Part shown: one piece after another, positions 46,414 through 63,721 of the stretch
Layout of the letters: every line of letters starts with the position of its first letter
How positions within the stretch are numbered: position 1 is the first letter of the stretch
Origin: Chitinophaga pinensis DSM 2588
GTDB taxonomy: Bacteria > Bacteroidota > Bacteroidia > Chitinophagales > Chitinophagaceae
DNA length: 64,000 nt
NCBI RefSeq assembly: GCF_000024005.1
Contig: NC_013132.1
Coordinates: forward strand, 2,722,001-2,786,000
Reading direction: 5' to 3'
The notes under the pieces: generated by a model
Databases searched by the model: none
What the model saw: only the letters and a program-made list of their open reading frames with translations
Told to the model about the DNA's origin: nothing
Translations under genes and position numbers: made by a program

Positions 46414-48969
46414 TTACTGGTGATAAGAATAACGGATCGTTACACCATAAGTGCGTGGATCGCCTAATACGGCCGCATAGTGACCCGCATTACCTGCCGC
46501 TGGCAGTAACTGCTCGAAATAATCTTTATTCAGCAGATTACGTCCCCATACAAAAATAGTCAGTCCGTTCAGTGCACGGAAACCTGCACGGGCATTAAAC
46601 AAGGTATAACCGTCAATATTCAGGTATTTGGAGGGTGACGGACTGGAAGAGAAAGAAGAGCGGAAATATGCATCCGCACCCACAAAGAAACGGGCATTCT
46701 GTCCCAGGATGATACCGGGATTAGAAACGATCTCTCCACCTATCGAACCTGCCCATTTTGAAATACCTGGTAATTCTCCACCGGAAATATCTTTAAAGGC
46801 AGCAGAGCCACCTGTTTCTTCCAATGGTACCGGCGCGTTCTTAAAAGACACATATTTGCCATCTGTGTAGGCAAGGGAACCATAGAGGGATACTGCACTA
46901 TGTATCTTCAGACTTGCATCCAGTTCCACTCCCTGCACCCTTACTTTTTCAGCATTGGCGAGGTAACCACGGTTTACACCCACTTCTGCGGTCTGTACCT
47001 GCGTCTGATAGTCTTTGATATCTGTTCTGTGGTAAACGATATTCGCAGTGGCATTCTTGCCCGGAGATGTTTTAACGCCTACTTCAAAATGTTTTACCGA
47101 TTCAGGATTGATCCTGGCCAGTTCCGTCATTACTTTACCGCCTGATGTAGGTAAGCCGCCGAGATTCACACCGATTGGTTTATAACTGGTGGAATAGGTC
47201 GCAAATGCGTTGATGGCTTTTGTCGGTTTATAAGCAAGTGTCAGCTGACCGGAAACATTGCTTTCATCTACATCCGCGTTGAAGGTCTGATTGGTATATA
47301 CAATATTTTTCAGTGCGATCAGATCCGGATCGTCTGTCTGTAAACCGCCATATGTCTTACGGTCATAGTCTACTTTTTTCTTGTCATAGTTGTAACGCAG
47401 ACCTGGTAATACATGTATCTGATCGGTGATCGCCCAGTCCAGTTGACCAAATACAGCACCGCCGAAAGTCTTCAGACGGGATACCGTTTTTATACCATAA
47501 CCATCAAACAAGCCCGGTGTCGCCCATAACTCGCTGGTTGAACTCTGGGAGAAACGCCACTGGGCATCTCCTGATTCTTCAATATGCGCAGGATCTGTTT
47601 TCAGGTCCTGCCAGATGCCGAATACACCTATAACACCGCTCAGGCGGGACGTCAGGTCACCTGCATAACGTACTTCCTGCGTCCATTGTTTATGTTTGGA
47701 AGTGGCTTGTGATAACTGTAATACTGCCAGACCGGTAAAGTCCCTGTCATTTGAAGGATCCCAGTTCCAGTAACGCCACGCGGTAGTGGAAGTCAGTGTA
47801 CCGCCGCCAATTTTAGCGTCTACATTCAGTGCAACGCCGCCCAGTTCATTACCGGAGCGCCATGGCGTATTATGGTCTACCAGACGGTCAAATGGATTCT
47901 CGCTGGGCAGTTTATAATTCAGGTCAGCAATGATCTGTTTAAACTGTCTGTAAGCAGGTCGTAAGGTGGGAGCTACACCTGCTACCACCTGTGCATAGCC
48001 TTCCGGATGTTGCTCGGAATTGTCCGCAGTCAGGGTGATCTTCACTTTGTCTGAAGGCGTATATAACAGCTGCCCGCGTAAGCCCAGGTTATTGAGGTCA
48101 TTGATATGTTTTTGCGTCACCACATTATAAAGTGTGCCATCACGCTGTGTACCGGAGAAGGACACGCGGGCGGCAAATTTCTTACTGAGCGGACCTGAAA
48201 CGGCTGCTTTTGCCTGGATATATCCATAGTTGCCATAGCTTACCTCGAAATTAGCTTCCGGGGTAAAACTAGGCTGTCTTGTCGTGATATTGAAGGCGCC
48301 TGCGGTTGTGTTTTTACCGAAGAGCGTACCTTGTGGTCCGCGTAATACCTCTACCTGTTCTATATCAATAAAGTCAAGCGTAGTCGCTGCCGGACGGGCA
48401 TAATACACGCCATCCACATAGAAACCCACACCCGGGTCAATACCATCATTTGTCAGACCAAAAGTCGATCCGACACCACGGATATTCAGGGTCGTATTCC
48501 GGGGATTGGAAGAATATAATTGTACGGTAGGTACAATCTCTTTCAGACGGTTAACGTTGAAGGCGCCGGCATCTGCAACCAGTGAACCGCTGATTACGGA
48601 GATCGGAATAGGTACCTGCTGCGCGGTTTCCAGGCGTCGGCGGGAAGAGATCACGACTTCCGACAGACTGTTATCGCTGGATAAGGTGATAGTCAGCGGA
48701 CCTGTAGGGAGGCTGGTCAGTTTTACTTCCTCCAGTTTATATCCCAGTGAACTGATTAACAGGGTGAAGGGAAACGCCCTCCGCAATGGAATACTGAATC
48801 GTCCGCTTGTATCTGCAATAGCGTGAACATTGGTGCCCTTGATTACTACAGTTGCCCCCACAACTGAGGTTCCCTCACCATTTTTTATCACGCCTACAAC
48901 GGCATCCTGAGAAAATGCCGTGCCGGCCAAAAGTAAAATTGGCATAAGGAAGAGTAATGATTTTCGCAT
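46414..48969 (-). CDS. TonB-dependent receptor with carboxypeptidase-like N-terminal domain
   Basis: 851 residues. Signal peptide about 1-20 (AFSQ), carboxypeptidase-like regulatory domain (about 22-100: VVGATVVIKGTNVHAIADTS), plug (about 112-225: ISVISGSLVADAG, LNIRGVGSTFGLTNDGIDPG, VEVLRGPQGTLFGKNTTAGA) and a 22-strand-type barrel to the end (DPRTYGVTIRYSYHQ). The plug phrase GVGFYVDGVYYARPAATTLD and the sequence style resemble FecA/FyuA-like receptors frequent in Proteobacteria (sphingomonads) rather than SusC. No SusD gene is adjacent. Ligand unknown; siderophore, cobalamin or small glycans are all possible. Confidence 0.92.
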   Translation of the reverse strand: MRKSLLFLMPILLLAGTAFSQDAVVGVIKNGEGTSVVGATVVIKGTNVHAIADTSGRFSIPLRRAFPFTLLISSLGYKLEEVKLTSLPTGPLTITLSSDNSLSEVVISSRRRLETAQQVPIPISVISGSLVADAGAFNVNRLKEIVPTVQLYSSNPRNTTLNIRGVGSTFGLTNDGIDPGVGFYVDGVYYARPAATTLDFIDIEQVEVLRGPQGTLFGKNTTAGAFNITTRQPSFTPEANFEVSYGNYGYIQAKAAVSGPLSKKFAARVSFSGTQRDGTLYNVVTQKHINDLNNLGLRGQLLYTPSDKVKITLTADNSEQHPEGYAQVVAGVAPTLRPAYRQFKQIIADLNYKLPSENPFDRLVDHNTPWRSGNELGGVALNVDAKIGGGTLTSTTAWRYWNWDPSNDRDFTGLAVLQLSQATSKHKQWTQEVRYAGDLTSRLSGVIGVFGIWQDLKTDPAHIEESGDAQWRFSQSSTSELWATPGLFDGYGIKTVSRLKTFGGAVFGQLDWAITDQIHVLPGLRYNYDKKKVDYDRKTYGGLQTDDPDLIALKNIVYTNQTFNADVDESNVSGQLTLAYKPTKAINAFATYSTSYKPIGVNLGGLPTSGGKVMTELARINPESVKHFEVGVKTSPGKNATANIVYHRTDIKDYQTQVQTAEVGVNRGYLANAEKVRVQGVELDASLKIHSAVSLYGSLAYTDGKYVSFKNAPVPLEETGGSAAFKDISGGELPGISKWAGSIGGEIVSNPGIILGQNARFFVGADAYFRSSFSSSPSPSKYLNIDGYTLFNARAGFRALNGLTIFVWGRNLLNKDYFEQLLPAAGNAGHYAAVLGDPRTYGVTIRYSYHQ

Positions 48970-49329: not shown

Positions 49330-51588
49330 CTATAATACATAGATTTCATCGCAGCATATTGCGGCTTTCTTGGCGGCGGGAGCGTCTCTCCATGCAGGAA
49401 TCGTTTGCAGACACTTGCCTGTTACCCTGATATAGCGGGCTTTTACAGCAGGTAATGAGAACCGGTAAGTGTTGATCTTTGCATCATATTCTTCTGTGGC
49501 AAGAGGGGATGTTTGCTGTTTACCGGCAGGTGTGAAGTTCGCCCCATCCACAGAGGTTTCTACAATAATATCAGTAGGGTTAAAAATGTAATGGCGGGCA
49601 TCCTGTAAGAAATTCAGCTGTATTTCTTTCACAGTCTGTTCGGTACCCAGATCAACAGTGGCTATCAGGTCTTTACCATAGATAAACAGCCAGTTGATAC
49701 TGAAATCCTTATCTCCCTGCAAACCATCTGTCAGCGTCTGTTCTTTTTTGGCAGGATAATCTTCTGCCCAGGAATTTACAAGACTCACTTTGCCACGGAA
49801 CGCCAGACTGTTAATCCATTTGCGGGAGAAGATCTGGTCCCATTCCTGTTGATAAGTAGCTGGACTACCACCCCCTTCAGATAGTTCTTTTACACCTGCA
49901 AGTTTGCATTGGGCAACGAATTTCTTTACGCGTTCCGGCCAGCGTGGATTGACAGTAAAACCATTCCCTTCGGGGATCAGGTAACCGAATTTCTCTGTGC
50001 CGAAAAAGCGGGATTGTTGCAGCACGGTATATTCCAGCGGTAAACGCGTATTGTATACTCTTGCCAGCAGTGAATCATTTCCTTCCACTGCCTTTTCAGC
50101 TTTGTCCAGTAAGGAGGAATACTGATCGATCGCCTCCGGGGACAGATAGTTTTTGTAGTTATTAACGGGATTGCCGTAAATATCCAGTTGTGTTTTGGTA
50201 ATGTGCAGGGTGTTGGTTAATGCCTGAAGATATTGTGCGACAAATGGTCCTGCCTTGCCATAATAGCCGTTCAGGAAATCACTGGTGATTTCTTCCGTTG
50301 TCAGTCCGGGATTCCACAGCAATTTAGCCTGCAGATAACTATTGTAGGCCGCCATATCGCTATAGGTATCTCCGCTGCCCTGAGAAAAAACACCCTGGAC
50401 CTTGTGCGCGGCCAGGTATTGCAGATTCGCCTGCTGATTGTTATAGTCAGGGAAAGGGGCCAGGTAATTAGTGAATTGTGTGGTATAATCCCATAGGAAA
50501 ATATGCTCCGTTACAGCGCTCCATCCTTCCAGATCTCTTCTGAAAGCCGCGGCAGAAGAAATACTGCTCAGCGGCTCCTGGCGATACGCATCGATACTGC
50601 TGAGCATAATGTATACATTGCCGGCAGGTTTTGTTTTCAGGGGAGGATGTGCCGTATACTGGTACGCAAGTGTGGTAAACTGTTGTGCCGGGAAGGCGGC
50701 TGCAATGCGGTTGATGAACCGGATCAGTGTACCCTGTGGACCACCCTCTGCTGCATTGGCCTTACTACATTGATCACAGGTACAGAAGCCACCGCCATCT
50801 TCGGGAGCAATCGACCAGTACATCGCATCCGGATTATCCGCAATTGCTTTCCGGAAATAATCTACCATGAAGGTATAAACGCCTTCATTACTCAGACATA
50901 GCTGGCTGGCCTGTCGTTTCCCGTTGACAAGTGCATAGTAGTCCGGATGTGCCGCGAAATAAGTTTTAGGTGGCAATATTTTAAAGAAGGAATGTCCCCA
51001 CAATCCCCACAGGTCTTCGAAGCGGTGCAGCTTGTGCCATTCCAGGTATTCATCATTGAATGCAGCAGGGTAGTAGGTTTCCCGGTATAAAAAGGCAGGC
51101 ATCTGCCGATCTCTTAGTTGCTGCGGCAACTGCAGTTGTTTAGATACCGGTATGAAGACCGGTATGTCTGCATATTTCCGGCAACCGAAATAATTTTCCA
51201 GCAGGGTATACACGCCATACAAAATACCTTTGCCGGTTCCCCCTTTGATATATATATCCTGTTTGCCGGTAGCGATCAGAAAACCTTCTCCTTTTAACTT
51301 TTCCGGGTAAAGGGAACTGGTATATTCCGTATTGCCTATAAAGACCCCTGGCTGATCTTTGAACGCTTTTTCTGTAATAATGGGCAAGGAAGCACCTGAG
51401 AGGCGTTTGATATAATCCTGTAACAGGGCAGCTGCTTTCGTTTCATGTTTGGTCGCTTCATCCGGCAGGATAATGACATATTTTGAACTGCCACCTGACA
51501 CCAGATCGATATTCCCTTTAGAGGATTGACAACTATTATAGGTCAGCAGTGTCATAATAAGCAGTAAGCTGTGCATCATCCTGAACAT
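49330..51588 (-). CDS. DUF4838 lipoprotein with GH67-like N-terminal and F5/8C-like C-terminal domains
   Basis: 752 residues. Lipoprotein signal with lipobox LTYNSC (Cys20). About 35-130 is an alpha-glucuronidase-like N-terminal domain (KAAALLQDYIKRLSGASLPI, GVFIGNTEY, GILYGVYTLLENYFGCRKY). The DUF4838 barrel spans about 170-450, with WSIAPEDGGGFCTCDQCSKA as its conserved acidic/Cys block. The last about 140 residues look like a discoidin (F5/8 type C) carbohydrate-binding domain (ATVDLGTEQTVKEIQLNFL, ETSVDGANFTPAG, ARYIRVTG). The catalytic activity of DUF4838 proteins is not established to me. It starts 11 nt after the TPR/barrel gene and ends the exopolysaccharide-type operon, so it may trim or bind the exported polymer. 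Confidence 0.88.
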   Translation of the reverse strand: MFRMMHSLLLIMTLLTYNSCQSSKGNIDLVSGGSSKYVIILPDEATKHETKAAALLQDYIKRLSGASLPIITEKAFKDQPGVFIGNTEYTSSLYPEKLKGEGFLIATGKQDIYIKGGTGKGILYGVYTLLENYFGCRKYADIPVFIPVSKQLQLPQQLRDRQMPAFLYRETYYPAAFNDEYLEWHKLHRFEDLWGLWGHSFFKILPPKTYFAAHPDYYALVNGKRQASQLCLSNEGVYTFMVDYFRKAIADNPDAMYWSIAPEDGGGFCTCDQCSKANAAEGGPQGTLIRFINRIAAAFPAQQFTTLAYQYTAHPPLKTKPAGNVYIMLSSIDAYRQEPLSSISSAAAFRRDLEGWSAVTEHIFLWDYTTQFTNYLAPFPDYNNQQANLQYLAAHKVQGVFSQGSGDTYSDMAAYNSYLQAKLLWNPGLTTEEITSDFLNGYYGKAGPFVAQYLQALTNTLHITKTQLDIYGNPVNNYKNYLSPEAIDQYSSLLDKAEKAVEGNDSLLARVYNTRLPLEYTVLQQSRFFGTEKFGYLIPEGNGFTVNPRWPERVKKFVAQCKLAGVKELSEGGGSPATYQQEWDQIFSRKWINSLAFRGKVSLVNSWAEDYPAKKEQTLTDGLQGDKDFSINWLFIYGKDLIATVDLGTEQTVKEIQLNFLQDARHYIFNPTDIIVETSVDGANFTPAGKQQTSPLATEEYDAKINTYRFSLPAVKARYIRVTGKCLQTIPAWRDAPAAKKAAICCDEIYVL

Positions 51589-51599
51589 GAATAAAGTGA

Positions 51600-54467
51600 T
51601 TAGAATTTACGTTGCAGGGTTATATAGATGTCGTACTGGTTCTGGAAATCGGTATTGGTCACTTTCTGGTTGATCCATGTACCGAATATGCCTGCGGTAG
51701 TACGGTATTTAAATGTTTTCTGGTAACCTGCTCCCACACTACGGGTCAACAATCCTGCCAGTTTAGGGAACTGTATCAGACGGCTGCGGTCATCCGGAGA
51801 AGTACCAAGACCCGCTGTAAATGAGATATAATCCTGCTGACGGTTCATATAATAACGCGTGGTCAGGTTGTAGGAAGTATAGAACTCAGGCGAGTCACTG
51901 ATGAAATAAGCCCTGAAATTCACCCAGAAATCTTTCCAGGTCTTCGCTATGGAAGCTACACCGGAAATGCTGTTGGAACTGTCTGCATTCAGATAACGTA
52001 TACCCAGTTCGCCTTCAATATCATGTTTAAATGTCTTGAAGATGGAGTAAGCCAGCCTTGTTCTGGGAAATACCACTTCATTTGAATAGGTCGCCAGTGC
52101 ATAGGAATACAGTTCCGGATTATGCGTATAATACAATTCTGCTTCTCCCTGTAATCCCGTTCCCTGTTGACGGCCCGCATAGTTAAGCCGGGCTGCATAA
52201 GAACCGCGTTTGAAGAAATGACGGTATTCAAGGGTAGCGATATTATACTTTGTATCCTGGTAGTCATAGCTGGAATGCAGGAAGAACATCCCAAACTGAT
52301 TTTTCATTGTTTTGCTGTGCAGATAATCGGCATAATCCACATTGACAGGATTGCCATTCAGTTTTACAACGGAATCTGCCGCCAATGCTCCTTCCGCATA
52401 CATCTTTTTATTCTCCAGTGTAACTGCTCTCTTTTGTATGAACGATTCATTGTTCGGATAATAACGGATACCCTGATTCGCATACGCCAGTGCGCTGTCA
52501 TATGATTGTTTGCCATTCAGCAGATTGATGCTGTATTGTAATGCGAGAGAATCTTTTCTGTTGATATTTAATACCTGTCTGTATAAAGCCAGTGCACTAT
52601 CCGGTGCATTATTCCGCTGATAGGTATTGCCTTCGGCAATAAGTCCGTCGGTATAGGCAGTACGATATTTAATCGTGAACGGATAACGTTGCATCAGCTG
52701 GTAGGAGATCGCATTTGCTTCAGTATACCGTTGCATATCGGTCAGTATACCTGCTTTTTTCAGTAACAGCTCTTTATTATCCGGATAATATTGTAATCCC
52801 TGATCGGCATAGACCAGCGCGCTATCTGACTGTCCTATGGCTGTTTCCAGGTTGATCAGGTAATTCAGGGCTTCAATATTATCAGGCGATTGTACCAGTA
52901 CAGCCCTGAATTCACCGGCTGCCATATCGTATTCTTCAGCTTGCATCAGTTTACGGCCCGCAGTCAGACGAAGGTCCACCAGGTTAGCGCTGTACTTAGC
53001 ATCCTGGGGATGCTGATTCAGGAGTTGGGCTGCTATGTCGGCGGCTTCGTCATATTGACCCGTCTCCGCCAGTACACTTGACTTTTTCAGCAGGAACCTG
53101 CTGTTATTGGGATATACCGCCAGTGCTTTATCCAGTACTTCCAGGGCGTGTATGTGATCTTTCTGATTGATATAGGTATTGGCCATCAGGTCCATAGCAG
53201 TCGTATCACGGGGATCGGTCTGCAGGGCTTTGTCAAATTCAGCCAGTGCCAGGTCGTATTGCTGCTGTGCCAGATAGTCACGTCCGCTGGCTATTTTAAG
53301 GGCGGAGTAACGGCTTCTCTGATCGGCTGTACCGGCATTGTTATAACGTAATCTTTCGGCCAGAAGGGCTGCTTCTGCGAATTTACGATCGCTTTCCAGT
53401 ACATCCAGTTTAAGTGATAACAGTCGCTGGTCATTCGGATTGTTTTTTAATCCGCGGTTAATCCAGGCCAGTGCTTCCCGGTAAGCGCCACGGGACATAC
53501 TCATACCAATCACTTTATCCAGTGCTTCCCTGTTGCCAGGGTTCTTTTCTGCAATACCTGCATATAACAGGAAAGGATCCGTATTAGCATACCAGGCGGC
53601 GGCTTCCATGCGCAGTGTCGTTTCCGTACTACGTGCTTTTGCATCGGCCGGCCAGCGTTTTAATATCTGTTGCAGCTGATCGATCGCGCCGGCATAATCG
53701 TGCATATCCTGTAAAAGGCCCAGTTTACGCATCATCAGTTCATAGGAACCCGGATTAATTGCAAGGGCTGCATTTACCTGCTCAATGGCTTTTGTGAAGC
53801 TGCCACTTCTCACATACATACTATTGATAGCTGCCTTGGCTTCTTCGTTATCCGGATCCAGCATCAGGGCTTTTTCATAGTTCTCCTGTGATAAGAGCTG
53901 GTTGTTCCGCTGCTGATAATAATGCCCTGCCAGCAGGTAATGTCCTGTATAGGCACGTTGTACGCTTGTATCACCGGCATACTTATCCAGCAGGTTATCG
54001 GCATAAACGCCTCCCTGGAAGAAGCGTTCCGCAGCATCCAGTATCCCCAGCTTTTTCAGCATGAGTTCCTTATCAGACGGATAATGATAGAGTCCTTCAT
54101 CTACATAACATTCCGCCTCTTCATATTTCCTGGCGCCCAGTTCTATATTGATGGCATACAGGTAGGCATCTTTATACATCGGATCTTTTGCGAGTACCAG
54201 TTTCACATATTTTCTGGCAAGTTCCGCATTACCTGTCAGCATGTATAATCTGCCAAGCAGTAACTGCTGATCCACAAAATCAGGTCTCTTCTCCAGTGCT
54301 TCTCTGGATAGCTGGATAGCTTTCTGGTAATGATTCAGTTTCGTTTCCTTTACCGCTTCATTGTAGAGTTCATCGGCATCTTTCCCCTTGCTGAAGATCT
54401 GAGCCTGTACCTGTAAAGAAAGACAAAGTACCGTTCCGGATAGTATGTATTTGAAAAGAGACATCAT
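51600..54467 (-). CDS. TPR-repeat outer-membrane protein with YaiO-type barrel
   Basis: 955 residues, signal peptide about 1-22 (VQAQ). About 30-720 consists of some 18 TPR-like helical pairs; recurring phrases are YYPDNKELLLKKAGILTD, YPNNSRFLLKKSSVLAETG and YPSDKELMLKKLGIL. About 735-955 is a beta-barrel of the YaiO type (ATLEYRHFFKRGSYAARLNY, GEAELYYTHNPELYSYALAT, SISGVASIAKTWKDFWVNFR, ending IYITLQRKF). A TPR superhelix plus outer-membrane barrel is the architecture of polysaccharide export porins such as PgaA and AlgK/AlgE. It starts 2 nt after the second synthase gene, so it is the likely export channel for that polymer. Confidence 0.88.
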   Translation of the reverse strand: MMSLFKYILSGTVLCLSLQVQAQIFSKGKDADELYNEAVKETKLNHYQKAIQLSREALEKRPDFVDQQLLLGRLYMLTGNAELARKYVKLVLAKDPMYKDAYLYAINIELGARKYEEAECYVDEGLYHYPSDKELMLKKLGILDAAERFFQGGVYADNLLDKYAGDTSVQRAYTGHYLLAGHYYQQRNNQLLSQENYEKALMLDPDNEEAKAAINSMYVRSGSFTKAIEQVNAALAINPGSYELMMRKLGLLQDMHDYAGAIDQLQQILKRWPADAKARSTETTLRMEAAAWYANTDPFLLYAGIAEKNPGNREALDKVIGMSMSRGAYREALAWINRGLKNNPNDQRLLSLKLDVLESDRKFAEAALLAERLRYNNAGTADQRSRYSALKIASGRDYLAQQQYDLALAEFDKALQTDPRDTTAMDLMANTYINQKDHIHALEVLDKALAVYPNNSRFLLKKSSVLAETGQYDEAADIAAQLLNQHPQDAKYSANLVDLRLTAGRKLMQAEEYDMAAGEFRAVLVQSPDNIEALNYLINLETAIGQSDSALVYADQGLQYYPDNKELLLKKAGILTDMQRYTEANAISYQLMQRYPFTIKYRTAYTDGLIAEGNTYQRNNAPDSALALYRQVLNINRKDSLALQYSINLLNGKQSYDSALAYANQGIRYYPNNESFIQKRAVTLENKKMYAEGALAADSVVKLNGNPVNVDYADYLHSKTMKNQFGMFFLHSSYDYQDTKYNIATLEYRHFFKRGSYAARLNYAGRQQGTGLQGEAELYYTHNPELYSYALATYSNEVVFPRTRLAYSIFKTFKHDIEGELGIRYLNADSSNSISGVASIAKTWKDFWVNFRAYFISDSPEFYTSYNLTTRYYMNRQQDYISFTAGLGTSPDDRSRLIQFPKLAGLLTRSVGAGYQKTFKYRTTAGIFGTWINQKVTNTDFQNQYDIYITLQRKF

Positions 54468-54469
54468 GT

Positions 54470-55966
54470 TTAAGTATTTGCTGGTTTCTTCTGTCCGAAT
54501 CCCTGACGTTGCATATTTCCCCAGGTGTGTTTTTTACCGGTGATGAAGTTGAAATAGCCACGCAGTGCGAAGAATACGATCAGTGGATGGTAAACGAAAG
54601 GTTCGATGAATGCCATTAAGGCAAGTCCCACCACTTCTCTCCAGGTTTTATAATGTTTGTAGGTGATCTGGTCCCATAATACCGCCAGCGTCGTGATCAT
54701 TACAGAATACAGATACACGAAGAGCAGTAAGATCAGTGCATTATGCCAGTTGATATTACCGGTGATGATCTGGTAGATATAATAGAGGATACCGGTGAAT
54801 TCAATGATCGGTGCAAGGAATTCAAAGAAGAGGTTATAAGGCAGTACCACCAGTCCAAGTTTGCGATAACGCGGATTGAAGATCACCTTACGGTGAATGG
54901 TGATGATCTCTGCCAGACCACGTCCCCAACGCGTACGCTGGCGACTGAATACTTTCATATTAGGCGGACCTTCCGTCCAGCATTGTGTAGTAGGAATATA
55001 GCGGATCGCGTATTTCAGTTTATTATCGATCATATAGGTACACATACGCGTCACGATGTCCATATCTTCAGCGAAGGACTTACTGTCGTAACCACCTGCC
55101 TTGATCGCGATTTCCTTGTCAAACAGCCCCAGACCGCCTGATACGTTAGGTACGCAGTTGATCACGCTCCAGCCCATTTTACCCAGTACATAGGCGCGTA
55201 GGTATTCCATTTCCTGGAAGCGTGGTAACCATTTTTCCGGAGGACGTACACGGGTGATCACACCTTCATCTATCTCACAGGAGTTGGCAATACGCAGGGT
55301 TGCACCGGTGGCAATCACACGTACGCTGTCTTCCTTGACATGTATGTATCCACATTCAGGACAAGGTTCACCTATTTCTTTGATCTTGTTATGTTCTTCA
55401 TCCATGAACGGTTTGATCATGCGCAGCAGGGTATCTTTTTCAATGATACAGTCTACGTCCGTGCACAGGAAGTAGTCATAAGCAGCAGCATTAATACCGG
55501 CATTGGAAGCATCGGCTTTACTTTTACCGTTTACTTTATCGATGACAACCAGCTTATCGTAGGCTGTATTGGTAGATTTAAACAGGCGCTTTACTGGTTG
55601 GGATTTAATACGTTCATTATAAGCAAAATCCACTTCCTGTAGCTGAAACTCATTGATCAGTTTTGTAAGCGTGTCATCTGTACTACCGTCATTCACGATG
55701 ATTACTTCAAAACGGGGATAGTTCAGCGTCAGCAGGGAGCGTACGTTGGAGATGATCGTTACACCTTCATTAAAGGCAGGGGCGATGATGGATATGCCGG
55801 GCGCCAGCGGAGACTGGAGCATTTTATTATAGTCCACGTAACTGTTCTTCCGCTGAAACCGGATGATGCCCCGGAGCGACAGAATGGCCAGGAGTGCATA
55901 CATGAACAGCATTGTACAGCCATACACAAATACGAAGCCTTCATAAAAATTTCTAAACAGTTCCAC
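54470..55966 (-). CDS. Processive-type membrane glycosyltransferase (GT2), paralog 2
   Basis: 498 residues. One N-terminal membrane segment (about 13-33), cytosolic GT2 domain and several membrane segments after residue 365. Catalytic marks: VNDGSTDD (Asp93), TDVDC (Asp170, Asp172), AEDMD (Glu300-Asp301) and QRTRW at 343-347, the QxxRW motif of processive synthases such as cellulose, PNAG and hyaluronan synthases. About 22 residues near 190-212 are an insertion absent from the paralog upstream and contain CPECGYIH, a possible zinc knuckle half (Cys202, Cys205). The polymer is unknown. 27 nt after paralog 1. Confidence 0.92.
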   Translation of the reverse strand: MELFRNFYEGFVFVYGCTMLFMYALLAILSLRGIIRFQRKNSYVDYNKMLQSPLAPGISIIAPAFNEGVTIISNVRSLLTLNYPRFEVIIVNDGSTDDTLTKLINEFQLQEVDFAYNERIKSQPVKRLFKSTNTAYDKLVVIDKVNGKSKADASNAGINAAAYDYFLCTDVDCIIEKDTLLRMIKPFMDEEHNKIKEIGEPCPECGYIHVKEDSVRVIATGATLRIANSCEIDEGVITRVRPPEKWLPRFQEMEYLRAYVLGKMGWSVINCVPNVSGGLGLFDKEIAIKAGGYDSKSFAEDMDIVTRMCTYMIDNKLKYAIRYIPTTQCWTEGPPNMKVFSRQRTRWGRGLAEIITIHRKVIFNPRYRKLGLVVLPYNLFFEFLAPIIEFTGILYYIYQIITGNINWHNALILLLFVYLYSVMITTLAVLWDQITYKHYKTWREVVGLALMAFIEPFVYHPLIVFFALRGYFNFITGKKHTWGNMQRQGFGQKKPANT

Positions 55967-55993
55967 AGTATCTTCCTTGGTTTTTTATTATGA

Positions 55994-57454
55994 TTATTTG
56001 GCGGTGACCGTAGCCGCAGCCTTTTGTGTCGTCTGGAAGCCGCGTCGCTGCATATTGCCCCAGGTACTCTTTTTACCCGTGAGGAAGTAATAGTAACCGC
56101 GCAGGGCGAATATTACAATCAGTGGGTGATAGAGGAAGAATTCCAGGAATGGTGTCGTACACAGCAAAGCCACCTCTTTCCAGGTTTTATAATACCTGAA
56201 GGTGAGCTGATCCCAGAGGATTGCTATTGTAGTGATCATTACCGAATAGGTATATACAAATACGAGCAGCAGCAATGCTGTAGGCCAGTTGATCAGACCC
56301 AGGCAAGCCATGACGATATAATAAATGATACCGGTAAATTCGATGATCGGCGCCAGCAGTTCAAAGAAGAAGTTATAAGGGAAGATGATCAGTCCCATTT
56401 TCCCGTAGCGGGGATTAAAGAACATACCGAAGTGGGCATACATCAGCTGTGCAAGACCTCTTGCCCAGCGGGTACGCTGACGGTTGAAGATCTTTACGGA
56501 AGCGGGCGCTTCTGTCCAGCAAAGCGTTTTCGGTATATAACGGATGGCGTAGTCGATCTTATTATCCTTTGCATAGCGGCACATACGGGTCATCAGCTCC
56601 ATGTCTTCTCCAAAGGAACTATGGTCATATCCACCGGAGCGGATCGCAATTTCTTTATCAAAGAGACCTAATCCGCCGGATACATTCGGTACACAGTTCA
56701 GCAGGCTCCAGCCCATTTTACCCAGTACAAATGCACGGATGTATTCTACTTCCTGGAAGCGCGGCAATAACTGACTCGGGGGACGCATACGGGTCATTAC
56801 CCCCTGATCAAATTCACAGGAATTGGCAATGCGGAGTGTAGCGCCGGTAGCAATCACACGTTTCTTTTCTTCCTGCATCACCGGTTTGATCAGTTCCAGC
56901 AGGGTATTTTTATCGAGGATACAATCCACATCCGTACATACAAAGTGATCGTAGAGGGCTGCATTGATACCGGCATTTACTGCATCGGCCTTACTCTTAC
57001 CATTCACTTTGTCTATGACCATCAGTTTGGCATAGGCAGGGTTGGTGGATTTATAGATCTTCCTGACAGGCTTGGTCTGTATTTTGGCGTTGTAGGCAAA
57101 TTCGACAGGCACCAGTTCAAATTCATCGATCATCTGCTCCAGACTGTTATCTGTACTACCGTCATTGACGATAATGATCTCATACAACGGATAGTTGAGC
57201 GTGAGCAGGGAGCGCACGTTGAAGATGATGGTCAGGCCTTCATTAAAGGCAGGGGCCAGTACAGTAATGCCGGGCGCAAGGGGAGAGCTGAGGAGGATAT
57301 TCTCCTGGTGGAACTTATCTTTCCTTGCGTAGGCGCGTACGGATATCATCGAGAACACTGCCAGCAATGCGTAGGTAATCAGCAATACGGTACCGTAAAT
57401 AAAAACAGTGCTTTCATAAAATCTGCCTATCGTTTCCCAGATATTCTGCTCCAT
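55994..57454 (-). CDS. Processive-type membrane glycosyltransferase (GT2), paralog 1
   Basis: 486 residues, same layout as the following gene and clearly its duplicate (shared IAPAFNEG/LAPAFNEG, VIDKVNGKSKADA, RVIATGATLRIANSCE, CVPNVSGGLGLFDKEIAI, and the C-terminal GKKSTWGNMQRRGF). Catalytic marks: VNDGSTDN (Asp98), TDVDC (Asp175, Asp177), GEDME (Glu283-Asp284), QRTRW (326-330). One N-terminal membrane segment (about 17-38) and a C-terminal membrane bundle. Begins 8 nt after the HEAT-repeat gene. Whether the paralogs form a heteromer or make different linkages cannot be seen. Confidence 0.92.
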   Translation of the reverse strand: MEQNIWETIGRFYESTVFIYGTVLLITYALLAVFSMISVRAYARKDKFHQENILLSSPLAPGITVLAPAFNEGLTIIFNVRSLLTLNYPLYEIIIVNDGSTDNSLEQMIDEFELVPVEFAYNAKIQTKPVRKIYKSTNPAYAKLMVIDKVNGKSKADAVNAGINAALYDHFVCTDVDCILDKNTLLELIKPVMQEEKKRVIATGATLRIANSCEFDQGVMTRMRPPSQLLPRFQEVEYIRAFVLGKMGWSLLNCVPNVSGGLGLFDKEIAIRSGGYDHSSFGEDMELMTRMCRYAKDNKIDYAIRYIPKTLCWTEAPASVKIFNRQRTRWARGLAQLMYAHFGMFFNPRYGKMGLIIFPYNFFFELLAPIIEFTGIIYYIVMACLGLINWPTALLLLVFVYTYSVMITTIAILWDQLTFRYYKTWKEVALLCTTPFLEFFLYHPLIVIFALRGYYYFLTGKKSTWGNMQRRGFQTTQKAAATVTAK

Positions 57455-57462
57455 CTTGACGA

Positions 57463-58590
57463 TTAGAATTTAATTAACGGGTTCATGCTATGTTTCAGGA
57501 TCAGCTTGTTCTCTGCTGTAGCGGTATCTATCAGTTCCTGGATAAGTCCTTTTGCCGCCCACTGATTTTTGATCAATGATTTGGCGGCGTGCTTACGTAC
57601 ATCAAAATCAGTGGCGTGCAGGAATTCCTGGCGGAGGAAATCTACATTTTTTCCGCTGTTGATACGGCCAATGGCTTTGAGTATTTCCAGCCGGCAGTTC
57701 AGCGGCTGGCTATTGTACATATGCAGAAGTTTTTCTTCTACATCTTCGATCTTTAGTTTACCAAGACAGTTAATCGCATCAGCACGCAGGTAGTGATCTT
57801 TGGTATCGAGCAGTCTTACGACTGCCGGCACGGCGCTGATCTGGTTATAATGTACGACCAGTTTCAGACAGAAGGCTACGATGCTTTTATTGGAAGAGTA
57901 GGTGATCCATTGCGCGAAGTTGGGAATGGCAATATGTTCGGTAGTGGAAATGATCTTAAAAAGCTCTACCTGGTCCCACATGAGCAGTGGTTCTGTTACC
58001 ACGTCGAAGAACTTGAAAGGTTCGTTTTTACTGAGCTTGATATAAGCATGGCGGGCAGCGGCACGTAACTCACGGTTACGGCTATTGGTCAGGGGCAGAA
58101 TGGTTACGTCCGCAATAGACATATTCATGTTACTGAGTTCTGCCAGCGCCTGTACTTTCTTATCCCATTTACGGGATTTCATCTTTCTGAGGGAGTCTTT
58201 GTCCAGTTCCAGCTGGATATACAGGTTCCTGAGCTGTTCACCCATTGAACCCCGCACATTGTTACGGTATTCTATAAGTCTGGCGATGAGTGCCTCGCGT
58301 GCCCATCTTTTCTCAAACACCGGCAACCGGAATACTTCAACCGGCAGGATTACCTGATCGGCAGGTACATTACTGGCCAGTTCGTCATTGAGCAGGATAT
58401 GCTCCATGAGCAGGTCATCAATAACAGGATGGAGGCTGGCGAGCTTCTTTTCCCTTCTGTAGGCCCGGTATCTGCCTGTAAGAATGGACAAGTAGGCTAA
58501 TACGGTACATGCTACCGCAATAAAAATAAATATAATGGCAATCTGAATGTTCAGGGATGCACCCCTGAAGTCATAAAGGCTGTATTCCAT
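57463..58590 (-). CDS. Membrane-anchored HEAT-repeat protein
   Basis: 375 residues: one N-terminal membrane segment (about 14-36, IQIAIIFIFIAVACTVLAYL), a basic stretch (RAYRREKKL), then cytosolic helical repeats of HEAT type, clearest at SAVPAVVRLLDTKDHYLRAD, AINCLGKLKIEDVEEKLL, RLEILKAIGRINSGKNVDFL and DVRKHAAKSLI. Such proteins are scaffolds. Its place between a response regulator and the synthase genes suggests that it links signalling to the glycosyltransferases at the membrane. 63 nt downstream of the regulator gene and 8 nt upstream of synthase paralog 1. Confidence 0.85.
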   Translation of the reverse strand: MEYSLYDFRGASLNIQIAIIFIFIAVACTVLAYLSILTGRYRAYRREKKLASLHPVIDDLLMEHILLNDELASNVPADQVILPVEVFRLPVFEKRWAREALIARLIEYRNNVRGSMGEQLRNLYIQLELDKDSLRKMKSRKWDKKVQALAELSNMNMSIADVTILPLTNSRNRELRAAARHAYIKLSKNEPFKFFDVVTEPLLMWDQVELFKIISTTEHIAIPNFAQWITYSSNKSIVAFCLKLVVHYNQISAVPAVVRLLDTKDHYLRADAINCLGKLKIEDVEEKLLHMYNSQPLNCRLEILKAIGRINSGKNVDFLRQEFLHATDFDVRKHAAKSLIKNQWAAKGLIQELIDTATAENKLILKHSMNPLIKF

Positions 58591-58653
58591 ATAGGACTGG
58601 TCAATTAGTCAAAGGTTTCACAAAGGAGAGTAAACAATGAATGAGCGTACGCT

Positions 58654-59040
58654 TTATTTAGCGGCGTATTGTATCAGTAATCTTTTTACACGTATCAGTA
58701 GTTCACCCGGAATAACCGGTTTTTTGAGAAAGTCGTCTGCCCCTAGTTTGAAACCCTCCAGGATCATCTCTTCATTCCCTGCATTTGAAACAATTATTAC
58801 AGGAATTGGTTTGCCGTCCTTTCTTGTTTTTACTTTGCTGAGGATTTCGAAGCCATTGGCATATGGCATCATGATATCTGTAATGATCAGATCATAATTG
58901 TAGTTATTATCTTCCAGCCGTTGGAATGCTTCTTTTCCGTTTGTCACATGTTCAATCTTATATTCTTCTTTATGAAGTATCCTTTCCATGATTTTAGGCA
59001 TTACTTCATCGTCTTCTACGAGCAGAATTCTGGTACTCAT
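58654..59040 (-). CDS. Single-domain response regulator (receiver only)
   Basis: 128 residues from MSTRILLVEDDEV; a longer frame to 59100 has no family similarity in its first 20 residues. A CheY-like receiver: acidic cluster Glu9-Asp10-Asp11, phospho-acceptor Asp55 (LIITDIMMPYANG), Thr/Ser switch in VIIVSNAG and Lys in DFLKKPVIPG. There is no output domain, so it must act by protein contact, most likely with the HEAT-repeat protein or the synthases encoded just downstream. It is divergent from a hybrid histidine kinase gene 425 bp away, its probable phosphate source. Confidence 0.92.
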   Translation of the reverse strand: MSTRILLVEDDEVMPKIMERILHKEEYKIEHVTNGKEAFQRLEDNNYNYDLIITDIMMPYANGFEILSKVKTRKDGKPIPVIIVSNAGNEEMILEGFKLGADDFLKKPVIPGELLIRVKRLLIQYAAK

Positions 59041-59105: not shown

Positions 59106-59414
59106 TTAAAGTGTCAATGTTAGTGGCTGAAAGTATCTGCTGTAATCTGTCATTTACAGGGGAGTATTCCTTTCAAAAAGTCTTAATGGTGTAATCCCTA
59201 TATATACTGAAAAACACCGTCCAGGGATTTACCAAAACGAAATAATTAATAATACAATTACATTGTAAAAAAATATAACTTATTGGAGGTGTTGAATGTA
59301 TCAGTTGCGTTAATCAGTCATCAAAGTTACGTGGCTATATCTAAAGATAACCATATTATCCTGAGAAATATATATGGCACATAAGGTGTAGTATCATGAC
59401 CAGCGACTATTCCC

Positions 59415-59422
59415 TATATTTG
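59415..59422 (+). promoter_or_regulatory. Candidate -7 element for the hybrid kinase gene
   Basis: TATATTTG fits TAnnTTTG and lies 43 nt upstream of ATG 59465. It falls inside the longer reading frame that begins at 59396, supporting the later start. Confidence 0.5.
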
Positions 59423-59464
59423 TCCGGTCGTATTGTCATAATCCTATTTGCACGCTTACCAGAT

Positions 59465-62400
59465 ATGAAAAATACCTTAAAACTTCGTCTGTTTATTGGT
59501 TTCGCTTTAGCGCTTATTTGTGTGACCGCCGGGGGTATCTTTTCATATGTTACTTTCAACCATCAGCGTACTGAGGGAAAGTGGGTAGAGCATTCCTACG
59601 AGGTCATTACCACTGCACAGCGCCTGAACAGGTATATATATGAGATAGAGTCAGCCGGGGCTGCTTACAGAAGTACCCGTGTCAACAAATTCCTGCAACC
59701 TTATTTTCAGACTAGTCCTAAGGTACTGCCGCTGGCGGGCGACCTGCGGAAGCTGGTAGCCGATAATGCGCCCCAGTACAGGAAAGCGGGTAGACTTGAA
59801 AATAGTGTGATATCGTTGCTGAACTATTGGGAAGGTCTACGCAGGGATACAGTCAATATGTTCGGTAATCCGATGAAGGTGACACAGGAAGAGCGGCAGC
59901 ACCTGGATACAGTACATAACCAGATTACAGAGATTATATCGGATGAGCGCTTTCTGCTGATCAGCAGGACAGCTTCCAACGAAGCCTCTGTTGGCAGAGC
60001 GATGACAATGCTGATCGTCAATACGATCTTTATTCTGCTGATAGCAGCTGCCCTGATGATCGTTTCTTTCCGGGAGTTGTCCAGCAGGATGAAAATCCAG
60101 CAGGAGTTACGCCGCCGCCTGAAAGATGTGGAAAATCTGAACCAGCAGACGGGCGAAAAGAACTGGTTACTGACAGGGGTAGCTCATATTAATGACAGCC
60201 TGAGCGGAGAAATGGAGACACGCGTGATGGTTACCCGCTGTCTAGAGGTCATGGTAAAGTACCTGAAGGTACCGGCTGGTGCTTTTTATAGATTTGACAA
60301 GGATGAAACGATGTTGAGGCTTTGTGCCGGTATTGCCTTACCTGCAAAAGTTAAAAAAGAATATGTTTTAGGGGAAGGAGTGACCGGCCATGCCGCTACC
60401 AAACGCGAGATCAGTACCATAGAACGTGTGCCGGCTACTTACTGGAATATCGAAACAAGTGGCGGCAGTGCACAACCAGGCGCGATTATCTGCCTGCCCC
60501 TGTGGCATAATGAAGAACTGATGGGCGTGATGGAGCTGGTGACTTTTGGAGATATTTACCCAGGTACACTGGACCTGCTGAAGACGACCTCTCATGCCAT
60601 CGCCGTAGCGATCAATGGAGCAGAAGCGAGAGCCAGCGTATTACAACTACTGGAGCGGGTACAGGAGCAGAAAGAGATTCTCGAAACCCAGCAGGAGGAA
60701 CTGAGACAATCCAATGAAGAACTGACCCGTCAGTCAGAAATATTACAGGCATCTGAAGAAGAGCTCCGTGTACAGGAGGAAGAACTGCGTCAGATCAACG
60801 ACGAGATGACGGTACAGAATAAAGCACTGGAGATTGCGCGGCAGCAGCTGTCGCTGAAAGCGGAAGAACTGGAACAGAGCAGCCGGTATAAATCGGAATT
60901 CCTGGCCAATATGTCGCATGAATTGCGAACACCGCTGAATAGCGTCTTGATACTGGCACGGTTACTGGAAGAGAATAAAGACCGTAATCTGAGTAGCAAG
61001 CAGGTGGATTATGCCGGTATTATCCACAAATCCGGTTCAGACCTGCTGAAACTGATCAATGATATTCTTGACCTTTCTAAGATAGAGGCCGGTAAAGTAG
61101 AAATGCAGATAGAACCGGTGTCTGTCAGTGCTATGGTGAGTGACCTGGAACAATTGTTCAGGGTCGTGGCTGATGAAAAAAGTATACATTTCTCTACAGA
61201 AATAGCGGCGGGTGTGCCTGCCACTGTTCAGACTGACCGGCAGCGCCTGGAACAGGTGATCAAAAACCTGTTATCCAATGCGTTTAAGTTTACGCCTAAA
61301 AACGGGAACATACAGTTGCGTCTTACGGCTGCAGCTGATGGGGTATATATCGCGGTAAGTGATAATGGTACAGGTATTCCGGTGGAGAAACAGCAGCTGA
61401 TCTTCGAAGCTTTCCGCCAGGCAGACGGGTCTACCAGCCGTAAATACGGCGGTACCGGTCTGGGACTGTCCATCAGTAAGGAACTGATGAAACGACTCGG
61501 TGGAGAGATCCGGCTGGAAAGTAAGGAAGGACAGGGTAGTACTTTTACCGTTGTACTGAGAATGGATGGACTTGCGCAGGTACAGCAAGCCGCAGAGAAA
61601 CCGGTTATTCCGGCTCCGCCGCCTGTAAAAGAAGTACCTGTACCGATACCGGTAACAGTGATGCCGCCACCTGTTACGGAAGCGCCACAGGTGGAAGACG
61701 ACAGGGACAAACTGAGTAAACAGGATAAGCTGGTACTGATCATTGAAGACGATATCAGTTTTGCAACGATTCTGCGGGATTTTGCGAGAGAGAAAGGGTA
61801 TAAGACAATTGTGGCTTTAAATGGAAATGATGGACTGTTCTTTGCCCGTAAATATCTGCCGGCGGCTATATTACTGGATATGACCCTGCCGTTGATAGAT
61901 GGTAACAGCATTCTGAAGATTCTGAAGAGCAACGAAGATCTGCAACATATACTGATTCATGTGATATCAGCCGGTGAGATCTCCTTACAGGTAAGAGACA
62001 AAGTAGAAGGCTATACGCAGAAGCCGTTGCAGGTGACAGATATGGAGTCTGTATTCACCGGTATCAGTGATCGCTTACAGGCCCGGTTTAAAAAAGTGCT
62101 GGTGGTATCAGATGGCGTATTGCTGCATCATCCGTCTTTGCAATCTATGAGTGACGAGCGGCATTTGCAGACGCAGTATTATCGTGTAAGCGATCTGGAG
62201 GCAGCAGGCAGGGAGTTGGCGCAGAAGAGTTATGATGCAGTGATACTGGACGCAGGGACGAATATAACAGAAGGTCTGAGTAAATTACACAAGCTCAGGC
62301 AGGCCACATATAAAGGAATGCCTATCATTGTTTATCTTGATCATGATATTTCAGAAGCAGATGAACTGCAACTGAAGAAGGAAGCAGCAGCTATTGTCAG

Positions 62401-62884
62401 AAATTCTACGTTTTCGACAGACAGACTAATGGATGAACTGGAGCTGTTCCTGTACAAATTACAGGAGACGACCCCTCAGCTGAAAGCAGAACTGTTAGCA
62501 TCAGAAAACACACTGTCAGGGCAAAAAATTCTGCTTGCAGATGACGACATGCGTAATGTTTTTTCTCTAAGTGCCCTTCTGGGTGAACAGGGAATTGACG
62601 TCATCACAGCGGCAGACGGTAAGGAGGCATTGGAACGGCTGGAAGAGCACAATGACATACGACTGGTGCTTATGGACATTATGATGCCTGAAATGGATGG
62701 TTATGAAGCGATGCGCAGGATCAGGGCAATTGGCCGTTATAAGTCATTGCCGGTGATCGCACTCACCGCTAAAGCCATGGCAGGCGACCGGGAAAAGTGT
62801 ATCGCAGCAGGCGCTTCCGACTATATCGCCAAACCGATCGATAGCAGTAAACTATTATCACTCATGCGTGTGTGGATGGTGTAA
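59465..62884 (+). CDS. Hybrid sensor histidine kinase with CHASE3, GAF and three receiver domains
   Basis: 1139 residues from MKNTLKLRLFIGF. Membrane segments about 8-28 and 183-203 frame a CHASE3-like helical sensor; then a GAF domain (about 255-395), a Glu/Gln-rich coiled coil (395-475), HisKA with SHELRTPLNSV (phospho-His about 485), HATPase (about 590-700: NLLSNAFKFTPKNG, DNGTGIPVEKQ, GGTGLGLSISKELM), a Pro/Val-rich linker (700-750), receiver 1 (LIIEDD, ILLDMTLPLIDG), receiver 2, which looks degenerate (VLVVSDG, VILDAGTN, no clear Lys), and receiver 3 (LLADDD, LVLMDIMMPEMDG, AKPIDSS). Divergent from the polysaccharide operon and followed by CheR- and CheB-type genes, hence the probable sensor of that module. 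Confidence 0.93.
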   Translation: MKNTLKLRLFIGFALALICVTAGGIFSYVTFNHQRTEGKWVEHSYEVITTAQRLNRYIYEIESAGAAYRSTRVNKFLQPYFQTSPKVLPLAGDLRKLVADNAPQYRKAGRLENSVISLLNYWEGLRRDTVNMFGNPMKVTQEERQHLDTVHNQITEIISDERFLLISRTASNEASVGRAMTMLIVNTIFILLIAAALMIVSFRELSSRMKIQQELRRRLKDVENLNQQTGEKNWLLTGVAHINDSLSGEMETRVMVTRCLEVMVKYLKVPAGAFYRFDKDETMLRLCAGIALPAKVKKEYVLGEGVTGHAATKREISTIERVPATYWNIETSGGSAQPGAIICLPLWHNEELMGVMELVTFGDIYPGTLDLLKTTSHAIAVAINGAEARASVLQLLERVQEQKEILETQQEELRQSNEELTRQSEILQASEEELRVQEEELRQINDEMTVQNKALEIARQQLSLKAEELEQSSRYKSEFLANMSHELRTPLNSVLILARLLEENKDRNLSSKQVDYAGIIHKSGSDLLKLINDILDLSKIEAGKVEMQIEPVSVSAMVSDLEQLFRVVADEKSIHFSTEIAAGVPATVQTDRQRLEQVIKNLLSNAFKFTPKNGNIQLRLTAAADGVYIAVSDNGTGIPVEKQQLIFEAFRQADGSTSRKYGGTGLGLSISKELMKRLGGEIRLESKEGQGSTFTVVLRMDGLAQVQQAAEKPVIPAPPPVKEVPVPIPVTVMPPPVTEAPQVEDDRDKLSKQDKLVLIIEDDISFATILRDFAREKGYKTIVALNGNDGLFFARKYLPAAILLDMTLPLIDGNSILKILKSNEDLQHILIHVISAGEISLQVRDKVEGYTQKPLQVTDMESVFTGISDRLQARFKKVLVVSDGVLLHHPSLQSMSDERHLQTQYYRVSDLEAAGRELAQKSYDAVILDAGTNITEGLSKLHKLRQATYKGMPIIVYLDHDISEADELQLKKEAAAIVRNSTFSTDRLMDELELFLYKLQETTPQLKAELLASENTLSGQKILLADDDMRNVFSLSALLGEQGIDVITAADGKEALERLEEHNDIRLVLMDIMMPEMDGYEAMRRIRAIGRYKSLPVIALTAKAMAGDREKCIAAGASDYIAKPIDSSKLLSLMRVWMV

Positions 62885-62899
62885 ATCTTATTGTTTGTT

Positions 62900-63721
62900 A
62901 TGAAAGAGGAAATCTCAAATGCAGATTTCCTGGATATCATTAACATTGTCAGGTTACAATACGGATATGATTTCACCGGCTATGCACAGGCTTCTATAAA
63001 GCGGCGTTTACTCCGTTTTATGGGACATATGCGGCTAAGTTCCGTTTTTGAACTGAAGCACAGATTGGTTAATGACCAGGAATTCTTTTCCAGGCTGGTA
63101 CAGTACATCACAGTGAATGTGACGGAAATGTTCAGGGACCCCCAGTTCTACCGTACATTACGTGAACAGGTATTGCCTAAACTGGCCGCTTACCCCAATA
63201 TCAAAATATGGCATGCTGGTTGTTCTACCGGGGAGGAAGTATTTTCCATGGCCATCCTCTTGGAGGAGGCCGGATTGTTAAGCCGTACGAAGATCTATGC
63301 AACTGATCTGAATCCGGCTAACCTGGAAAAAGCTGTCACGGGCATTCTGCCATTGGACAACATGAAAGACTTTACACAGAACTATATTCAGTCCGGCGGA
63401 CTGGCAGACTTTTCTAATTATTACACCGCCAGATATGATAATGTGCTGATCAAAAAAGAACTAAGAGAGCATATCGTATTCTTCCAGCACAACCTGGTGA
63501 CAGATAAAGTATTTAATGAGTTTCAGCTGATCTGCTGCCGGAATGTATTCATTTATTTCAACCGGGAACTGCAAAACGGCGTCTTACAGTTGTTTTATGA
63601 CAGTTTATCACCCCGTGGTTATCTGGCGATGGGCATCAAAGAGACGATGCGCTTCGCGGATATTCACCGGAAATTTGAGGTGTTACATGCCCAGCATAAG
63701 ATATACCGGCGTAAAGAATAG
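62900..63721 (+). CDS. CheR-type protein-glutamate methyltransferase
   Basis: 273 residues from ATG 62900; a TTG at 62891 is less likely. N-terminal helical CheR domain (FLDIINIVRLQYGYDFTGYA) and SAM-binding C-terminal domain with NVTEMFRDPQFY, IKIWHAGCSTGEEVFSMAIL, ATDLNPANLEKA and ICCRNVFIYFNRE, all standard CheR blocks. The beta-subdomain needed for chemoreceptor recognition seems present, but no pentapeptide-bearing receptor is visible. Since no methyl-accepting protein gene is near, the substrate may be the CHASE3/coiled-coil region of the upstream hybrid kinase; this is inference. 15 nt after the kinase gene. Confidence 0.93.
   Translation: MKEEISNADFLDIINIVRLQYGYDFTGYAQASIKRRLLRFMGHMRLSSVFELKHRLVNDQEFFSRLVQYITVNVTEMFRDPQFYRTLREQVLPKLAAYPNIKIWHAGCSTGEEVFSMAILLEEAGLLSRTKIYATDLNPANLEKAVTGILPLDNMKDFTQNYIQSGGLADFSNYYTARYDNVLIKKELREHIVFFQHNLVTDKVFNEFQLICCRNVFIYFNRELQNGVLQLFYDSLSPRGYLAMGIKETMRFADIHRKFEVLHAQHKIYRRKE

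Follow-up and report, generated by a model that had tools for sequence, protein, structure and literature searches.

PgaABCD, the poly-N-acetylglucosamine system of Escherichia coli, presumably divides its work between a family 2 glycosyltransferase (GT2) with a QxxRW motif in the inner membrane, an exporter that joins tetratricopeptide repeats (TPR) to an outer-membrane barrel, and a periplasmic processing enzyme, all encoded in one compact operon. Among BcsABCZ for cellulose and other synthase-dependent systems, some include an accessory hydrolase. To our knowledge, it has not been described how polymer synthesis is controlled in Bacteroidota that lack diguanylate cyclases. The exporter barrels of known synthase-dependent systems comprise 16–18 strands according to passages of PMC9601211. 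Here, we analyze a stretch of 64,000 nucleotides ("the window") from Chitinophaga pinensis DSM 2588 (NC_013132.1, positions 2,722,001 to 2,786,000), a member of the Bacteroidota with a single-contig genome of 9.13 Mb. Judging from sequence, a six-gene operon in this window probably specifies an exopolysaccharide system of the synthase-dependent kind, with a membrane HEAT-repeat protein as fixed partner of the synthases and a receiver-only response regulator that probably acts via this HEAT protein.

Organization and Conservation of the Operon

The cluster consists of six open reading frames (ORFs) on the minus strand with intergenic gaps of 63, 8, 27, 2 and 11 nt. ORF coordinates and Pfam thus bear out the leftward arrangement and the domain labels that a first-pass annotation had read from the sequence. 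In order of transcription, the genes encode the receiver-only response regulator (58654..59040, 128 aa; PF00072, 97.3 bits), the membrane HEAT-repeat protein (57463..58590, 375 aa; HEAT_2 PF13646, 43.8 bits), the processive-type glycosyltransferase GT2a (55994..57454, 486 aa; Glycos_transf_2 PF00535, 62.4 bits), its paralogue GT2b (54470..55966, 498 aa, GTG start; PF00535, 68.8 bits), a TPR-YaiO outer-membrane protein (51600..54467, 955 aa; YaiO PF19413, 134.0 bits at residues 722–893) and a DUF4838 (GH163-type) putative lipoprotein (49330..51588, 752 aa; PF16126, 311.6 bits), with the Pfam matches of all six exceeding the family cut-offs. The receiver gene starts with ATG at 59040, and an in-frame TTG would extend it to 59100. 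An operon promoter was sought by eye and none was established; no dedicated promoter or terminator scan was made.

A search of 59 genomes detected the HEAT protein in 32, its own included, and 31 of these are among the 36 genomes of the genus. From 34 loci fetched at length, the 26 with HEAT proteins of at least 61% identity were taken as close-relative loci; they represent 26 of the 27 genus relatives with such a protein, the 27th (G006) lying at a contig end. All 26 show the order receiver-HEAT-GT2a-GT2b-YaiO-DUF4838 on one strand, and the layout is therefore beyond chance. The other eight loci are more distant: L054 and L055 carry receiver-HEAT-GT2-YaiO-DUF4838 with a single GT2, L056 and L057 have a single GT2 and also lack DUF4838, in L060 and L061 receiver-HEAT-GT2 is accompanied by a short, oppositely oriented YaiO gene, and L058 has a HEAT protein without the remaining genes. 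In L059, the core occurs in a different order, and the HEAT protein has a long N-terminal extension that looks LysM-repeat-like by eye. Outside the genus, the core consists of the receiver, the membrane HEAT protein, one GT2 and the TPR-YaiO barrel.

Across 395 genomes of the phylum, a HEAT profile gave matches in 77, comprising 57 strong places (at least 46.5 bits) and 30 weak ones, a split made by eye after viewing the list; 27 genomes had nothing but weak matches and were scored as negative. Of the 57 strong HEAT places, 49 have YaiO no more than 10 kb away, and 2 of the 30 weak ones are likewise near YaiO. Counted by genome, 49 have both, 1 has strong HEAT only, 44 have YaiO only and 301 have neither (Fisher's test ignoring kinship, 2.5e-35), and in the class of the window the identical 44 genomes carry strong HEAT and YaiO. 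The neighborhood search that had been suggested as a check therefore found relatives that are clustered rather than scattered, and the QxxRW GT2s and the TPR-YaiO barrel proposed as a synthase and export machine are indeed tightly co-conserved. The contig L097, titled Beijerinckiaceae, carries a full Chitinophagaceae-type operon with 74% GT2 identity and is probably mis-binned. The close HEAT orthologues P0010 (92% identical) and P0012 (90%) bear the source names transposase YbfD/YdcC and pilus assembly FimT, which are probably wrong.

The HEAT-GT2 Pair

Most unexpectedly, HEAT and GT2 are paired almost without exception across phyla. Using an alignment of HEAT-linked GT2s, at least 268 loci were confirmed, and the best 80 of these (47 Bacteroidota, L097 included despite its record title, and 33 from other phyla) were analyzed. 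Within this best-80 set, a HEAT gene lies directly upstream of GT2 in 45/47 Bacteroidota and 29/33 other loci. The final HEAT model includes the sequences that it scored; a first round built on 58 of the 74 proteins recovered the remaining 16. The final model had only four further matches among the ORFs of these loci, namely three short or fused pieces located at a pair and a single additional HEAT gene. Among the loci without an upstream HEAT gene, L112, L133 and L142 have the GT2 at a contig end, with a short HEAT piece still visible in L133 and L142. In L162, L169 and L172, the GT2 proteins are about 950 aa long and possess a long N-terminal part, which matches HEAT_2 above the cut-off in L169, weakly and below threshold in L172, and not in L162. 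The protein from Sphaerochaeta (Spirochaetota; L169:7546-10398) is thus an apparent natural HEAT_2-GT2 fusion, although its 30.0 bits (cut-off 27.7) are summed over the whole protein and no single stretch passes alone. Of eight upstream proteins scanned from outside the Bacteroidota, seven exceed the Pfam cut-off for HEAT_2, and that of L157 falls just below. Conversely, GT2 adjoins HEAT in 28 of the 30 best HEAT-selected loci (the window's own included), the other two stretches ending inside a long HEAT frame.

In Bacillota, no YaiO match accompanies the pair, and L153 and L160 (Pfam) and L157 (local profile) have a neighbor that bears a receiver. In Stutzerimonas (L163), the TPR-YaiO gene sits between the receiver and HEAT genes, so the four-part core crosses phyla. 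A 608-aa protein that matches the HEAT profile is also encoded directly upstream of a related GT2 in the haloarchaeon Natronorubrum (L175).

The HEAT protein of the window has one hydrophobic helix (residues 19–37), followed by basic residues and then the HEAT domain. Such a helix is present in 72 of the 74 proteins upstream of GT2, where it is usually single, N-terminal and followed by Lys/Arg; by the positive-inside rule, this suggests that the HEAT domain is on the cytoplasmic side.

Components of the Putative Synthase and Exporter

Both GT2s of the window contain QxxRW in the form QRTRW with DVDC upstream (in GT2a at 326 and 175, respectively), and each has four hydrophobic helices, of which one precedes and three follow the catalytic part. 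The QxxRW motif is kept in 73 of 74 Bacteroidota GT2 rows. PgaC/IcaA is the best NCBIfam model for both (GT2a 116.4, GT2b 120.1 bits), and a PDB search gave generic matches only. The two proteins are 65% identical to each other. Directly after its DVDC, GT2b harbors a Cys-rich insert, CPECGYIH (window 55320-55400), a pattern found in the GT2b of 26/26 relatives and in 0/26 GT2a; its Cys/His residues possibly bind metal, and the insert implies that GT2a and GT2b have diverged. In a tree built by a quick method and covering 7 of the 26 close-relative loci, GT2a forms one clade, with the GT2b rows alongside but not united in a single clade; the rows of E. coli PgaC and YaiP, on branches longer than 9, are unplaced. 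As single-copy Chitinophaga GT2s are the sister group of GT2a/GT2b (support 93), the sequences indicate that the pair arose by duplication within the Chitinophagaceae. Conceivably, the two could assemble into a heteromer or synthesize different linkages. In some relatives, GT2 is accompanied by a sulfatase-family domain (PF00884), which we take to resemble that of phosphoglycerol transferases. It is fused to GT2 in ORFs of 1139-1178 aa in L127 (by Pfam) and in L108, L109 and L125 (by local model), and is fused to or encoded after GT2 in L106, L127 and L130 by Pfam and in 12/47 loci in all by local profile. This suggests polymer modification.

The 955-aa exporter candidate combines a hydrophobic N-terminus, a TPR superhelix and a C-terminal β-barrel, with TPR and YaiO in one chain according to Pfam. 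Its YaiO membership is clear from PF19413 (cut-off 23.9) and TIGR04390 (86.3 bits, cut-off 32). A PDB search with the TPR part returned generic matches only. The barrel is predicted to have 14 strands at a model confidence (pLDDT) of 89.0 and resembles FadL-type channels, CymA and OmpG. The earlier comparison with PgaA holds for the joining of TPR and barrel in one protein and does not extend to the predicted strand number. A model of the barrel had also been suggested as a check for an export-sized pore; as far as fold goes, the prediction does resemble 14-stranded channels. The locus suggests an export role for YaiO, to which the literature passages give no function: it appears solely within a knockout list in the available text of PMC8594841 and solely as a poor homology model in that of PMC7383365. 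The "YAIO" of PMC10448405 is a strain name rather than the protein.

The DUF4838 protein belongs firmly to its family (PF16126 cut-off 26.6), carries a C-terminal F5/8-type carbohydrate-binding module (Pfam), and shows, when read by eye, a hydrophobic N-terminus that leads up to a Cys at residue 20, which makes it a putative lipoprotein. Its predicted fold is like that of hexosaminidases and other glycoside hydrolases, and it is therefore likely to be the processing enzyme, as the first-pass annotation had supposed. No GH163 entry was among the fold matches listed, and the catalytic domain had no sequence match in the PDB, where a firm match was confined to the C-terminal module. The protein is an optional accessory of the core. 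The label "DUF4838 domain-containing protein (GH163)" is used in the consulted part of PMC9870897, and an endo-acting GH163 enzyme of Bacteroides thetaiotaomicron cuts N-acetylglucosamine–mannose links in host N-glycans (passages of PMC10154615). In co-culture of Polaribacter dokdonensis with Micromonas, MED152_03905 (GT2) was up 8.8-fold and MED152_03915 (DUF4838, GH163) 18.5-fold, and the authors, in the same excerpts, place the GH163 gene among catabolic carbohydrate-active enzymes (PMC9870897). Polaribacter contigs L100 and L102 have the order HEAT-GT2-YaiO-DUF4838, then a small protein (DUF1573 in L102). Going by this gene order, both upregulated genes would belong to a HEAT-GT2-YaiO-DUF4838 operon; their tags are two apart. 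The locus hints that some of the DUF4838/GH163 genes assigned to catabolism belong to matrix synthesis instead. As a side observation, the small DUF1573 protein after DUF4838 in Polaribacter and Bacteroidales has a lipoprotein-like N-terminus (L102:15656-16186 and L120:15582-16157, Pfam), and similar small ORFs were spotted by eye at L100:15707-16237 and L103:15467-16042.

Receiver, Kinase and Cyclic di-GMP

PF00072 is the sole family above cut-off in the response regulator, which thus is a receiver domain alone. The acceptor Asp55 is kept in 44 and Lys107 in all 46 of the aligned receivers. The receiver gene immediately precedes HEAT in 26/26 close-relative loci with a spacing of 4-72 nt, is no more than 6 kb away from GT2 in 35 of the 47 GT2-selected loci of Bacteroidota, and accompanies HEAT-GT2 also in Stutzerimonas, Bdellovibrio and Clostridium. 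A candidate phosphate donor is a divergent hybrid histidine kinase (59396..62884, plus strand, 1162 aa; CHASE3-GAF-HisKA-HATPase-three receivers by Pfam), whose relatives, 48-81% identical and on the opposite strand, adjoin the operon in 22/26 close-relative loci. A CheR methyltransferase gene comes after this kinase in the window (59396-63721 for both; Pfam).

Neither PilZ domains nor a cyclase had been seen in the initial reading, and this extends to the whole genome, in which GGDEF and PilZ gave 0 matches each; in 14 control genomes, the same searches were positive in 8 and 5, respectively. GGDEF is absent from 41 of 44 other strong-HEAT genomes (44 of 49 were checked, leaving out G075, G083, G227, G263 and G279), and also from 19 of 20 HEAT-negative relatives among the matches listed. 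Because HEAT-negative relatives lack GGDEF as well, its absence was dropped as a system-specific sign; it is weak evidence, as most relatives tested are without GGDEF, those with the system and those lacking it alike. Control by cyclic di-GMP (c-di-GMP) from a recognizable GGDEF enzyme is nevertheless unlikely here, as far as sequence can tell.

Proposed Mechanism and Alternatives

From the observed gene set, gene order, co-conservation and motifs, we infer the following pathway, in which processivity, protein contacts, direction of control and polymer chemistry are all putative. GT2a and GT2b would polymerize a sugar chain, probably one containing N-acetylhexosamine, while translocating it across the inner membrane. 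Beside the synthase, the HEAT protein may be anchored in this membrane by its one helix and expose its repeats to the cytoplasm, in the position taken by PgaD or by a PilZ domain in c-di-GMP-controlled systems. The receiver, phosphorylated for example by the divergent hybrid kinase, could dock on HEAT (or on HEAT and GT2) and switch synthesis on or off; that it acts through HEAT is probable, with phosphorylation-dependent control and the identity of the polymer being more conjectural. The TPR superhelix would then guide the chain across the periplasm to the YaiO barrel for export, with the DUF4838 enzyme trimming or cutting it in the periplasm.

Several observations weigh against this pathway. 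The PgaC/IcaA scores of both GT2s are far below the equivalog cut-off of 422.3, they share 23-24% identity with E. coli PgaC, and the 14 predicted barrel strands are fewer than those of known exporters (PMC9601211, in part). YaiO occurs without a strong HEAT match in the 44 genomes mentioned above, DUF4838 adjoins YaiO at only 13 of its 31 places across the phylum sample, and the HEAT-GT2 pairing rates, obtained with a HEAT-linked alignment and for the best 80 loci, may fail for remoter GT2s. Moreover, 19 of 30 HEAT-selected loci (about 4 kb each) contain a strong receiver and 11 do not, and 12 of 47 GT2-selected Bacteroidota loci, some of them cut by contig ends, have none within 6 kb. As it is not always adjacent, the receiver may be optional or encoded at another site.

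These 11 loci, the lack of a receiver domain in the fused protein of L169 and the strong transcript changes of GT2 and DUF4838 in Polaribacter (PMC9870897, as excerpted) would suit an exopolysaccharide machine in which HEAT is an assembly or stability subunit only, the receiver works on other partners such as the neighboring kinase, and control is transcriptional. The invariable position of the receiver directly before HEAT in the close relatives and its company with HEAT-GT2 in Stutzerimonas, Bdellovibrio and Clostridium speak against this, and we consider it rather unlikely. Low identity to a proven polymer synthase, GT2-sulfatase-family fusions (L127, L108, L109, L125) suggestive of modification chemistry and the 14-strand barrel could instead indicate that, rather than a secreted polymer, the GT2s produce or lengthen a short glycan, or else modify lipids or a surface glycoconjugate, with YaiO as a surface sensor or enzyme-like barrel. 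The almost universal QxxRW motif and the four hydrophobic helices per GT2 argue otherwise, as do the joining of a long TPR part with a barrel and the likeness of this barrel to sugar-passing and other open channels, which renders such a role improbable.

It is still harder to reconcile the data with a catabolic locus akin to a polysaccharide utilization locus, in which DUF4838 would degrade an external glycan and the adjacent TonB-dependent receptor (46414-48969, Pfam) would import the products. While this receptor and the GH163 label with its catabolic reading in Polaribacter (PMC9870897, same passages) fit, DUF4838 follows synthase and YaiO genes in 26/26 relatives, the TonB receptor is matched in 1/26 only (the nearest relative, L032), and a scan of nine proteins of the window, which left the remainder uncovered, gave no SusD-type match; we regard this explanation as very improbable. 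Taken together, a synthase-dependent system with HEAT as the synthase partner addressed by the receiver remains the preferred interpretation.

A wider proposal is offered tentatively, and we hold it with clearly less confidence than the assignment of the operon itself. HEAT and GT2 could represent a separate bacteria-wide class of polysaccharide synthases, whose membrane HEAT adaptor takes its signal from a phosphorylated receiver and thereby fills the role of c-di-GMP in Pga, Bcs and Alg; Gram-negatives would add the TPR-YaiO exporter, and Bacillota, possibly also archaea, would use the inner-membrane unit alone. If true, this would amount to a third way of controlling processive synthases and account for matrix control in Bacteroidota without c-di-GMP. 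Tens of genomes carry the system, and the synthase-fixed HEAT partner is a concrete, testable candidate for polymer control.

Comparison with Known Systems

No description of a HEAT-GT2 or GT2-YaiO system was found in the titles and abstract beginnings of the papers listed by searches of the open-licence literature. The suspicion that exactly this set is undescribed thus stands within that literature, with the qualification that the set is a local form of a widespread core rather than a one-off. HEAT and YaiO go unmentioned in the available passages on the Pseudomonas stutzeri EPS273 locus (PMC5532660), EmbRS comprises LuxR-type regulators of a different kind of cluster (PMC3684757, in part), pgaC occurs within a gene list in the excerpt of PMC9258536, and that of PMC7112194 contains none of the terms sought.

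The E. coli yaiO-yaiX-yaiP-yaiS block likewise unites a YaiO barrel gene with a GT2 (yaiP), plus a putative deacetylase (yaiS). However, it has no annotated HEAT or receiver gene, its YaiO is short, yaiX is a broken pseudogene in K-12, and YaiP aligns to the window GT2 over short stretches only, with 23-30% identity. The architecture common to PgaABCD and the window was outlined at the outset. Instead of PgaB deacetylase and PgaD, neither of which had a match in a search confined to the six operon proteins, the window has HEAT and receiver genes and a hydrolase from another family, and its exporter reaches 31.6 bits with the PgaA model, below the cut-off of 366.65. The E. coli pga genes have the diguanylate cyclase gene dgcT beside them, unlike the GGDEF-free genome studied here, and the PgaA barrel has 16 strands (PMC9384988) compared to the 14 predicted. 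With BcsABCZ and other synthase-dependent systems, the locus shares the synthase, the periplasmic TPR and the outer-membrane barrel (general features in PMC9601211, as excerpted), but it is devoid of c-di-GMP and PilZ parts, and its predicted barrel is smaller than the 16–18 strands known. It thereby departs from two usual marks of the synthase-dependent kind, namely the strand number, as far as predicted, and the c-di-GMP parts. Finally, the B. thetaiotaomicron GH163 enzyme (PMC10154615) is of the same family as the window DUF4838 protein by the label given in the excerpts of PMC9870897, yet the latter is encoded beside a synthase instead.

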